Source: Candidatus Hebobacterum abditum (GTDB lineage Bacteria > Armatimonadota > Hebobacteria > Hebobacterales > Hebobacteraceae). From it: a stretch of DNA of 64,000 nt. A program made the position numbers and the translations under genes. Below the pieces are notes generated by a model that was not told the DNA's origin, did no database searches, and saw nothing but the letters and a program-made list of their open reading frames with translations. The stretch covers positions 48,354 through 112,353 of the forward strand of contig JALGXW010000021.1 of the NCBI GenBank assembly GCA_029821875.1, given 5' to 3'. Shown here piece after piece: positions 4,069 through 17,280 of the stretch (positions are counted from its first letter, which is position 1; each line of letters starts with the position of its first letter).

Positions 4069-4098
4069 ATTGTACCACAAATGCCCCACGCCGGTCAA
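4069..4098 (-). promoter_or_regulatory. Putative sigma70-type promoter of the helicase operon
   Basis: Minus strand TTGACC - 18 bp - TACAAT (-10 at 4069-4074, -35 at 4093-4098). Confidence 0.6.
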
Positions 4099-4306
4099 AC
4101 GCCGCGGTCGGGATCGCGCACACTCTCTCTGCCAAATGGCGATGAGACGCCGCTCACAGCCCTGCATGCTTGTCCTCGAACCTCAGTCATTCTCCCATAT
4201 AAGACCTCCGGGCCGCGCCTCCGGCGCCTTGCCGTTCATCCTGAGCCTTGCCAAAGGGCCGAATCCCCACCACGGACGCACACCTGCCCCAGGGGGACGC
4301 CCTTAC

Positions 4307-5755
4307 CTAGTCCCTGCCACGCAGGAAGTGGCGCCGCTTGTAGAGGCTTCGCGCACAGAGAGCGACCCCCGCGGTCACGAGCAGCGGCGGCAACAGAGTT
4401 GCGGCCCATGGACGCCCGTCAGCCCGAGCGGGCAGGAACACCCAGGCCGCGAGAAGGATGCTCATGAACCACCCGTACACGGCCCACACGGCCCATCGCG
4501 CCCTCAGCAGTAAAGCGATCGCCTGCGTGATGCCGAGGATCCCGAACAGAGGCGCAATGACGAGCGATAGCCGTGTCAGCGGACTTGGGAAGTCGCTGGC
4601 GAGCATCGGCAACACAGTGAAGGAGGCAACGATCGCCAGGAATCCAAATGCTGTACCGGCGGCGATAAGCTGATAGAACATAGGGGGCAGATCCCGGAAC
4701 TTTGCCGGCAAGACATCTCGGAATATCGCGAAGGACCCCGGCCACACTCGGAGGGAGAGCCACCGACGCCGTTTGGGTTCGACACCGCCAGCGAACCACC
4801 AGCGGTTGTGCCAGGTGTAGACACCCACGGCAAGCGCGAACACTATCCCAAATGCGGTCAGGCGAGTGCGTACCTCGGGAGGAGACATAAACCAGTGGGC
4901 CACCGGGAAAGACGCACACCAGGCCCAGACTGCGTACACGCCCCGCTGGTTTTGGACGAGTATGGCTCTCGCCTGCACCAGACTGAGGACCGCAAGAACG
5001 AACATTGCCTTGTTGCCGCTTGGGGTCCCGGCAAAGCACGGGCTGATGTTAAGCATGCGCCGCCCTTCAGCCACTGACAGTAAAGCGGCAAGGCCCCACA
5101 AGATTCCGAAGATCGCAATCCCCAGGAGCAGCTTCGGGGCCCGCCACCAACGGCGACGCGCGTGATGCCGCCGAGCAGCAATCAACATGTCTCTTACTGC
5201 CGCAGGCATAGGGTCACCCGGGAAGTACGTCTTAAGACGGTCATAGCGGGCGTCGAAGTACCCCTTCGCGGGGCATGTGCTCAAGCCGGGAAGCTGTAGA
5301 GGGAGCAGTCGTTCCATGACCATCTCTGCCAGGCGCTGATCGCAGGTAAGATCGAAGCTGCCGTATCGGCCAACCCTCTCCTTCGGCCACCCAGCATCGG
5401 GAGTATCCTCATCCATGGGATAGAAGCGCAGATAGAACTCCCGACTACTCGGGCAGAGCCCGATGTGGACATAAGTGTCCCCGGTGCGGGCCGCATAGAG
5501 ACTATCGTCGGAAGCTAGGGTCCTCTCGATCTCAGACCACGTGGTCTCTTCCGGCCGCGACGGGACGCCGTGGTGCTCATGCCAATCCTCCATGCGATCG
5601 AGCGTCGCATCGGGCCATTGCTCCTTCAGCGTATCCACGACGACCAGCAATGCAGCCCGAAGGTCCGATAGCGGTATGTGCTGCTCGAGGTGGACCGTCA
5701 CGCCATTGAAGGGAGCTCGGCCCTCACGCCAGCGCCGGTTGAGTTCCTCATCCAT
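4307..5755 (-). CDS. Polytopic membrane protein with N-terminal soluble domain, function unknown
   Basis: 482 aa ORF; soluble first ~200 aa, then multiple hydrophobic helices. Confidence 0.65.
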   Translation of the reverse strand: MDEELNRRWREGRAPFNGVTVHLEQHIPLSDLRAALLVVVDTLKEQWPDATLDRMEDWHEHHGVPSRPEETTWSEIERTLASDDSLYAARTGDTYVHIGLCPSSREFYLRFYPMDEDTPDAGWPKERVGRYGSFDLTCDQRLAEMVMERLLPLQLPGLSTCPAKGYFDARYDRLKTYFPGDPMPAAVRDMLIAARRHHARRRWWRAPKLLLGIAIFGILWGLAALLSVAEGRRMLNISPCFAGTPSGNKAMFVLAVLSLVQARAILVQNQRGVYAVWAWCASFPVAHWFMSPPEVRTRLTAFGIVFALAVGVYTWHNRWWFAGGVEPKRRRWLSLRVWPGSFAIFRDVLPAKFRDLPPMFYQLIAAGTAFGFLAIVASFTVLPMLASDFPSPLTRLSLVIAPLFGILGITQAIALLLRARWAVWAVYGWFMSILLAAWVFLPARADGRPWAATLLPPLLVTAGVALCARSLYKRRHFLRGRD

Positions 5756-14772: not shown

Positions 14773-17280
14773 CTAGAGTTCTGCCTGCAGTTCGTCGATG
14801 CGGGCCGCGTACTGGTCGACCGCCTGCCTGGCCGTCTCACTGTCGCCGCTCTCGGAGTGGATGTGGAACAGGGGCGCGGAGACATCGGGCAGGACGAGCA
14901 CCCAGCCGCCGTCCAGGTGGATCTTGATGCCGTCGAGATGCTCCACGTGCAGGGCGCTGCTCTCTTCGTGCAGGCGGCGCATCACCGTCCCCTTGTGCTC
15001 CCAGGGGCACTGCACTTGACTTCGAGCCCGGTAGTACCTCGGCATGCGGGCACGGACCTGGCTCAGCCGCTGGCCGCTGAGCGCCAGGAGCTCCAGCAGC
15101 TTGCCCACGGCCAGCATCGCGTCGAAGGCGGGCAGGAAGCGCGGGAAGATGAAGCCGCCCTCGGTGTTGCCCGCGAAGACGAGGCCGGGCGTGCTCCCCG
15201 CCGTCTCCATGAGGGAGCGAGAGTCCGCCTTCGTCCTGATGACGCTTGCCCCATGCCCCCGGCAGATCTCTTCGATCCCGGAGGTGGCGCTGAAAGGCAC
15301 CGCCACCTGCGCGCCGTGGTCCGCGCCCTGGAGCACCAGGTCGGCGAAGACCAGCAGGAGATCGTCGCCCACCAGCGCCTCGCCGGTCTCGTCGATGGCG
15401 GCCAAGCGCTCGCCATGGCTTCCCATGAGCAGCCCCAGGTCGGCCTTCAGCGCGTGTACAACATCTCCCATTTCGACCACGCGTTCGCTTCTCGAAGACC
15501 ACGGTTCCTCTGAGCGAGTGGGATCGACGAAGGCGTTGAGCGCTGTGGACTCACACCCGAGCCGGCCGAGCACCTGGGGCATGAGCAGACAGAGGGGGCC
15601 GTAGGCATAGTCGATGACGAGCTTCGGCCGCCAGCGCGAGATCGCCTGCTCGTCGAGGAAGTTGAGAAAGTCCTCGGTGTAGTACTCCATCGTCCGGCCG
15701 AGGAATTCGAGACTGCCCACTGCGTCGAGCGGGGCGCGCCTGAAATCCTCACGGAAGAAGATGCTCTCGATCCTGCGCTCCGCGCTGCGGTCCAAGTTCT
15801 TGCCGGTGCCGTCGAAGAACTCGACGACCATCTGCCCGGGCTCCGTCGATGAGGCGGAGACGTGGATGCCGCCGGCCGCCCCTGATATGTTCGCCATGTG
15901 CCGGGCGACGGCGCCGGGCATGATCCGGAGGTCCAGCACATTGGCGCCCACCGACATGAGGCCCGCGATGACGGCCCGCTTCGCCATGCGCGAGGCATGA
16001 TGGGAGTCGCGGCTCGTGATCACCTGCGCCCCCGCCTCGAGGTAGGCTCCGAACGCCGCGCCCAACTTGGCGGCGAACTCGGGCGTGATCTCGATGTTCG
16101 CCAGGCCGCTCACGCCGCTCGACCGGAACAGGGCCCCCGGCCACTTCGTGCCCCAGACGAGGCTCATCGTGACCTTGGAGCCGCGTTCTGTGACCTTATC
16201 CGGCCACATGCGGATGCGGGGCATCACGGAGGTGCCCTCTTCGAGCAGACACCTGTCGCCGACCACCGCCCCCTCGTTGATGGTGACATTCCGCTTGGCG
16301 ACGACGTTGCGGCAGACGGTGGCGGCCTTGACGCGGGCGCCGTGCCCGAGGTAGGTGCCGCTCCACACCACGGAGTGCTCGACCTGCGCGCCGGCCTCGA
16401 TCACGCAGTTGTCCCCCACGACCGCCAGCGGCCCCACCTGTGCCCCCGGCCCGACGCTGCAACCGTGCCCGATGAGCACAGGCGCCCGCAGCTCGGACCC
16501 GGGGTCGAGCCTCGTGTCCTCACCCACCCAGACCCCTTCATCTCGCGCCTCCCCGGGCAGGTCGGCCCGCACCTTCCCCAGCAGGCAGTCATGATTCGCC
16601 GCCTGGTACTGCTCGAGGGTGCCGACATCGGTCCAGTAGCCCTCGGCGACATAGCCGCAAAGGAGCTTACCCTCGCTGAGAAGAGCTGGATAGAGATCCT
16701 TGCTGAAGTCGTATGGGCGCTCAGCGGGAATGCGCTCCAGCGCCTCGGGCTCCAGGATGTAGATACCTGTGTTGACCGTGTCGGAGAACACTTCCCCCGG
16801 GCCCGGCTTCTCGAGGAACCGTTCGATCGTGCCCTCTCCGTCGAGGATCACGACACCGTATTCCAACGGGTCGGGTACTCTCGTGAGAACGAGAGTCGCG
16901 ACCGCGCCGCGTGCCCTGTGGAACTCGATGGCCGGCCGCAGGTCGAAGTCCGTGAGAGCATCTCCGCTGATGATGAGGAAGGTGTCGCCGAGGCGGTCGA
17001 TCAGGCGGCGGACCGAGCCGGCCGTGCCCAGGGGCGCATCTTCGACGGCATACTCGAGCTCGATCCCGAACTCCTCGCCGTCCCCGAAGTAGCTCTCGAC
17101 TTCGTCCGCCAGATAGTGCAGCGTGGCGAAGCCCTTCCGCACACCTAGCCCCGCCAGCAGGCGGAGGATATGGTGCATGATGGGCCGGTTGGCAACCGGC
17201 GCCATCGGCTTGGGCAGATCGCAGGTCAGAGGGCGCAACCGAGCGCCTTCCCCACCCGCCATTATGACTGTCTGGATCAT
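14773..17280 (-). CDS. Mannose-1-phosphate guanylyltransferase-like nucleotidyltransferase / left-handed beta-helix / (degenerate) phosphomannomutase fusion
   Basis: MIQTVIMAGGEGARLRPLTCDLPKPMAPVANRP, hexapeptide repeats, then PGM-like domain. Start trimmed from 17397. Confidence 0.9.
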   Translation of the reverse strand: MIQTVIMAGGEGARLRPLTCDLPKPMAPVANRPIMHHILRLLAGLGVRKGFATLHYLADEVESYFGDGEEFGIELEYAVEDAPLGTAGSVRRLIDRLGDTFLIISGDALTDFDLRPAIEFHRARGAVATLVLTRVPDPLEYGVVILDGEGTIERFLEKPGPGEVFSDTVNTGIYILEPEALERIPAERPYDFSKDLYPALLSEGKLLCGYVAEGYWTDVGTLEQYQAANHDCLLGKVRADLPGEARDEGVWVGEDTRLDPGSELRAPVLIGHGCSVGPGAQVGPLAVVGDNCVIEAGAQVEHSVVWSGTYLGHGARVKAATVCRNVVAKRNVTINEGAVVGDRCLLEEGTSVMPRIRMWPDKVTERGSKVTMSLVWGTKWPGALFRSSGVSGLANIEITPEFAAKLGAAFGAYLEAGAQVITSRDSHHASRMAKRAVIAGLMSVGANVLDLRIMPGAVARHMANISGAAGGIHVSASSTEPGQMVVEFFDGTGKNLDRSAERRIESIFFREDFRRAPLDAVGSLEFLGRTMEYYTEDFLNFLDEQAISRWRPKLVIDYAYGPLCLLMPQVLGRLGCESTALNAFVDPTRSEEPWSSRSERVVEMGDVVHALKADLGLLMGSHGERLAAIDETGEALVGDDLLLVFADLVLQGADHGAQVAVPFSATSGIEEICRGHGASVIRTKADSRSLMETAGSTPGLVFAGNTEGGFIFPRFLPAFDAMLAVGKLLELLALSGQRLSQVRARMPRYYRARSQVQCPWEHKGTVMRRLHEESSALHVEHLDGIKIHLDGGWVLVLPDVSAPLFHIHSESGDSETARQAVDQYAARIDELQAEL

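Follow-up and report, generated by a model that had tools for sequence, protein, structure and literature searches.

SCO1388 of Streptomyces coelicolor, a putative GMP/ManB fusion, has been described as apparently bifunctional; disrupting it, singly or in combination with one or the other of two further GMP genes, brought no additional phenotype and barely affected GMP (PMC5982138). In a separate screen, insertion in SCO1388 was linked to lower actinorhodin (PMC6585502). A phosphohexomutase fold without mutase activity is found in PGM5 (aciculin), which keeps the substrate site and binds glucose-1-phosphate (PMC7761743). GlmM dimerises via domain 1 and inhibits CdaA through contact (PMC8573169), and GMPPB is under the control of inactive GMPPA, which binds GDP-mannose (PMC11228364).

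The protein analysed here, P0001, belongs to a group of fusions – referred to as type A – that join a live nucleotidyltransferase (NTase) to a dead mutase domain. Like SCO1388 it combines an NTase and a phosphomannomutase-like domain in one protein. SCO1388 is presumed to be an ortholog, judging from Streptomyces relatives, whose architecture and lost loops are those of P0001; the difference lies in the mutase half, which in type A we read as dead. PGM5 resembles P0001 in having a mutase fold without mutase activity, but retains its active site, whereas P0001 is without the metal, sugar and phosphate loops and is fused to an NTase: since a PGM5-like pseudo-mutase is inactive with an intact substrate site, P0001 falls outside that class. 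In the GMPPA/GMPPB and KONJAC/VTC1 pairs an inactive protein likewise works with an active NTP:sugar-1-P transferase (of the NTase plus left-handed beta helix, or LbH, fold that P0001 shares), but in those pairs an NTase paralogue on a second chain is the dead partner, where P0001 has a mutase fold within its own chain. In the GlmM–CdaA pair of Bacillus a mutase fold works on a second enzyme through contact, but this mutase is active in its own right and its partner is a separate chain. The closest solved structures to the C-terminal half, the Thermococcus/Pyrococcus phosphoglucomutase/phosphomannomutases 9du5 and 1wqa (~30% identity, TM 0.88-0.92), are stand-alone enzymes in which no catalytic loop is missing. 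A pseudo-mutase fused to an NTase is a variation on the pseudo-enzyme theme, not a new kind of system; a literature search lying mostly outside subscription journals found no published description of an inactive mutase domain of the type A kind.

The fused gene and its nucleotidyltransferase half

The window (the whole stretch of DNA analysed, 64,000 nt) carries the P0001 gene on its minus strand, at 14773-17280. The product is 835 aa long, read from an ATG at 17280, with a possible start as far out as 17397, and runs from an NTase through a left-handed beta helix to a phosphohexomutase fold. An earlier note on this DNA had quoted the strings GGEGARLRPLT, SASSTEP, GSHGER and LPDVSAP, all of which were found, on the minus strand; the interval it gave (14773-16100) covers the mutase half and misses the rest of the gene, to 17280. 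The features are as follows.

14773..17280, minus strand: fusion gene P0001, 835 aa (ORF with ATG at 17280; Pfam domains)
16588..17271, minus strand: nucleotidyltransferase domain PF00483, aa 4-231 (Pfam; catalytic motifs intact)
17224..17256, minus strand: NTase signature GGEGARLRPLT, aa 9-19 (sequence)
16228..16533, minus strand: left-handed beta-helix LbH_EIF2B PF25084, aa 250-351 (Pfam)
14791..16131, minus strand: phosphohexomutase-fold pseudo-domain, aa 384-830 (PGM_PMM I-III detected, IV not)
15976..16011, minus strand: conserved basic segment RDxxxxxRxxKR, aa 424-435 (type A compared with stand-alone mutases)
15838..15858, minus strand: former phosphoserine loop SASSTEP, aa 475-481 (alignment)
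15406..15423, minus strand: former metal loop GSHGER, in place of DGDxDR, aa 620-625 (alignment)
15154..15171, minus strand: former sugar loop GNTEGG, in place of GExSGG, aa 704-709 (alignment)
14977..15006, minus strand: family-specific motif PWEHKGTVMR, aa 759-768 (type A alignment)
14872..14892, minus strand: former phosphate loop LPDVSAP, in place of RPSGTEP, aa 797-803 (alignment)

The gene sits in a dnaA-dnaN-recF-dciA cluster, of which DnaA and DnaN were identified by eye; RtcB flanks it on the opposite side. The nearest named hit comes from a MAG of Hebobacteria, a class of Armatimonadota to which the host is related. Between P0001 and its same-genus orthologue (L005) identity is ~75% over aa 1-300 and ~90% over aa 300-810; a recombination break within the fused gene is likely.

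All NTase motifs are present in P0001 (GGxGxRLxPLT, PKP, SGD, EKP, NTG and WxDxG). Across the family, 76 of 76 full-length type A proteins (P0001 among them) conserve the signature, the lysine, the metal Asp and the EKP, NTG and WxDxG positions, and the earlier claim of an intact N-terminal transferase thus extends to the family. The best solved relative of this half is 8x7s (tlr0611), a UTP-glucose-1-phosphate uridylyltransferase. Against the NCBIfam model for GDP-mannose pyrophosphorylase (Rv3264c type, NF052502) P0001 scores 262 bits, below the curated cut-off of 440, and assignment as ManC by NCBIfam was therefore rejected. We read the N-terminal half as an active-looking ManC/GMPPB-like sugar-1-phosphate nucleotidyltransferase.

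Loss of mutase residues across the type A family

The mutase domains of 84 type A proteins (P0001 included, and mostly from Armatimonadota and Actinomycetota) were compared with 44 intact stand-alone mutases, mostly of one subfamily, and, by phmmer, with solved mutases. Catalytic residues (R20, H109, K118, D242 etc.) carry P. aeruginosa PMM/PGM numbers. P0001 keeps one of 11, the serine position (S477). Both phmmer and the 44 mutases place S391, S478 and E487 at the sites of R20, H109 and K118; the metal triad D242/D244/D246 has become G620/H622/E624, with the Arg after the third position kept; the sugar loop GExSGG reads GNTEGG (N705 for E325); and in the phosphate loop R421, S423 and T425 are replaced by L797, D799 and S801. 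Judged on the four loops of an active phosphohexomutase (phosphoserine, metal, sugar and phosphate), P0001 does not qualify. Replacement of the metal, phosphoserine and phosphate loops, as originally claimed, is borne out by both alignments; to call the loops ablated is right overall, but overlooks that the serine position is still Ser and that Glu, followed by the Arg, stands for the third Asp. Loss of the sugar loop and of the Arg20 equivalent, and the undetectable PGM_PMM_IV, had gone unmentioned.

The same losses recur throughout the family. Survey of fusion homologues for loop loss, which the earlier note had proposed, shows that all 84 type A domains keep just 0-3 of the 11 residues (median 2), compared to 10-11 in the 44 stand-alone mutases, in support of its reading as a pseudo-mutase. 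None of the 84 type A domains has the DDD metal triad, as against 44/44 stand-alone mutases and 7/7 domains of the mirror-image fusions described below (type B). Glu replaces the third metal Asp in 80/84 type A domains, Leu the phosphate-loop Arg in 72/84 and Asp the phosphate-loop Ser in 80/84. Pfam PGM_PMM_IV is below detection in 54 of 55 scanned relatives, though the fold match covers domain IV. Because these losses were found again in every homologue examined, the loss is not due to chance; that a single metagenome assembly produced it through a sequencing error or frameshift has a negligible probability, since cultured strains of Actinacidiphila and Streptomyces show the same losses, as do plasmid records. 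Chance and artefact were both rejected on the 84 related domains.

From these replacements we infer that the mutase-fold domain of P0001 cannot do mutase chemistry. A contrary reading is that the domain catalyses an unorthodox phosphotransfer, relying on the retained serine, on Glu624 and on an altered metal site. S477 is retained, and among type A domains the phosphoserine position is Ser in 49/84, the third Asp has become Glu in the 80 noted above, and three acidic residues occupy the metal positions in 10/84 (P0001 not among them); residual or altered chemistry is thus possible in some members. In P0001, however, the metal positions are G/H/E and equivalents of the phosphate-loop Arg, Lys118 and His109 are gone, while the former catalytic loops differ widely among relatives: we consider this reading improbable.

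Our survey centred on 61 Armatimonadota and 150 Actinomycetota genomes, with other phyla seen in passing only. Matches spanning both halves (a few of them partial) occur in ~29 of the former and ~66 of the latter; beyond these phyla one case each carries the label Bacillota or Spirochaetaceae, and another lies on a Campylobacterota plasmid (the divergent type A fusion L055 on plasmid pSULKU01 of Sulfuricurvum kujiense). The order NTase-LbH-PGM, which characterizes SCO1388-type proteins, is identical in 55/55 scanned relatives. A quick-search tree built from 117 mutase domains places all type A domains in one clade (SH-aLRT 100), with stand-alone and type B mutases across the branch. This tree, from which we rejected a loss confined to the P0001 lineage, is consistent with one ancestral loss of mutase residues. 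The earlier note had mentioned neither this ancient, family-wide loss nor the intact mutase that often adjoins type A genes in Actinomycetota, nor the mirror-image fusions.

Type A members are named by domain content, and one, SCO1388, has been called apparently bifunctional; proteins of this kind are called two-in-one enzymes, but probably pair an active domain with a repurposed one. Should the mutase half prove dead throughout the family, bifunctional calls insert a non-existent mutase step in pathway models, and the small contribution of SCO1388 to GMP merits a fresh look.

Constraint and possible role of the mutase-fold domain

AlphaFold2 modelled P0001 with mean pLDDT 90.3 and pTM 0.61 (from a 55-sequence type A alignment that omitted three rows from a plasmid collection); at this pTM the modelled arrangement of the domains is tentative. 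The modelled mutase half matches 9du5 (Thermococcus phosphoglucomutase) with a target TM of 0.92 and an rmsd of 2.3 Å over ~450 columns. Given this match and a pLDDT of 90, the mutase half is taken to be folded, and together with Pfam PGM_PMM I, II and III the model places P0001 in the phosphohexomutase superfamily.

Close type A pairs give a dN/dS of ~0.03-0.15 in NTase and mutase halves alike; the values are rough, several pairs having a high or saturated dS. Judged by these ratios, the dead domains of type A are under purifying selection. Some 20 positions are near-invariant in type A and rare in stand-alone mutases, including R431, R460, R515, N582, W760, G764, M767, R768 and D799; where type A has R431, 40/44 stand-alone mutases have Glu or Asp. 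R424 and K434 also occur in the archaeal mutases of the phmmer comparison and are thus not type A inventions. A pseudogene was accordingly rejected on dN/dS (even if rough) and on the frame, which is single and open across both halves in nearly all type A genomes. A vestigial mutase domain, decaying without function, would account for former catalytic loops that vary among relatives, but not for dN/dS well below 1, an open frame, new invariant residues and a kept fold, and is very improbable.

We presume that the pseudo-mutase domain acts on the NTase as a non-catalytic module. The reading we favour, with somewhat better than even confidence, is that an active-looking NTase is joined to an ancient, constrained mutase-fold pseudo-enzyme that serves for docking or regulation. 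The pseudo-mutase would act most likely through protein contacts – either in assembly with itself, or as a dock for an intact mutase on a separate chain, which would deliver sugar-1-phosphate to the fused NTase – and less likely through effector binding at a new site. This role is favoured because of the constraint, the intact mutase next door in some Actinomycetota, and the precedents of GlmM-CdaA and GMPPA-GMPPB.

The mutase neighbours are as follows. Of 45 actinomycete loci, 16 have a same-strand mutase gene as their immediate downstream neighbour; 15 of these genes are intact, at gaps of -13 to +290 bp from the type A gene, and one (L103 in G168, 4069-5478) is itself degraded (TGCSNP, DGDGDK, no RPSGTEP). 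A CDP-alcohol phosphatidyltransferase gene is directly upstream in 25/45, and DUF881, DUF1290, DUF881 and VanW genes lie farther downstream in several; the conserved cluster (CDP-alcohol phosphatidyltransferase, fusion, mutase, DUF881, DUF1290, DUF881, VanW) is seen in L155 and L161-L163. Neither an adjacent mutase gene nor an upstream CDP-alcohol phosphatidyltransferase gene was found in the 27 Armatimonadota loci, and the 64,000-nt window holds neither; because no mutase adjoins in these loci, the docking reading rests on Actinomycetota. Elsewhere in the genome of the window a separate intact mutase adjoins a GMP_PMI-type guanylyltransferase (ManC). In two relatives of the host (L175 and L176) a GT4/GT5-like glycosyltransferase (GT4-type) is encoded just upstream of the fusion.

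A plausible though on balance unlikely alternative is an allosteric sensor, in which the pseudo-mutase tunes the NTase on binding an anion such as a hexose phosphate or nucleotide sugar, at the old site or a new basic one. Domain I of type A carries conserved Arg/Lys residues (R431, R435, R460, R502 and R515), inactive PGM5 still binds glucose-1-phosphate (PMC7761743) and GMPPA, which binds GDP-mannose, controls GMPPB (PMC11228364). Unlike PGM5, type A has its sugar and phosphate loops destroyed, which disfavours sensing of hexose phosphate via the old pocket: with Asp for Ser in 80/84 and Leu for Arg in 72/84, that pocket is unlikely to hold hexose phosphate. The suggestion of a regulatory or sugar-phosphate-sensing domain, hexose bisphosphates included, thus survives in part. 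A regulatory or structural role agrees with purifying selection and the new invariant residues; sensing does not agree with the loss of E325, S327, R421, S423 and T425.

Mirror-image fusions

Seven Armatimonadota fusions with the domain order of type A (L058 in G025, L060 in G038, and L125-L129) show the opposite pattern. In all seven the four mutase motifs are intact and the NTase is degraded (R14 to Pro, K24 to Arg, D107 to His); in the tree their mutase domains group with stand-alone mutases of the same families, away from type A. With a dead NTase and a live mutase, these type B fusions are nearer in kind to GMPPA/GMPPB and KONJAC/VTC1; the AlphaFold2 model made from their seven sequences, at pLDDT 71, is weak, and nothing here depends on it. 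Among the fusions sampled from Armatimonadota and Actinomycetota, none had two intact halves.

It is conceivable, if rather unlikely, that these patterns reflect reciprocal decay: NTase-mutase fusions would have arisen at least twice, each with one live half, and the dead domain of one type may act as a docking mimic for the pathway's live enzyme. The outcome would be a split complex for nucleotide sugars in which the pseudo-enzyme halves are matched. The opposite losses make docking of live pathway partners by pseudo-domains testable. Clear full-length type A matches are present in five of the seven genomes that carry type B, and likely matches in the other two.
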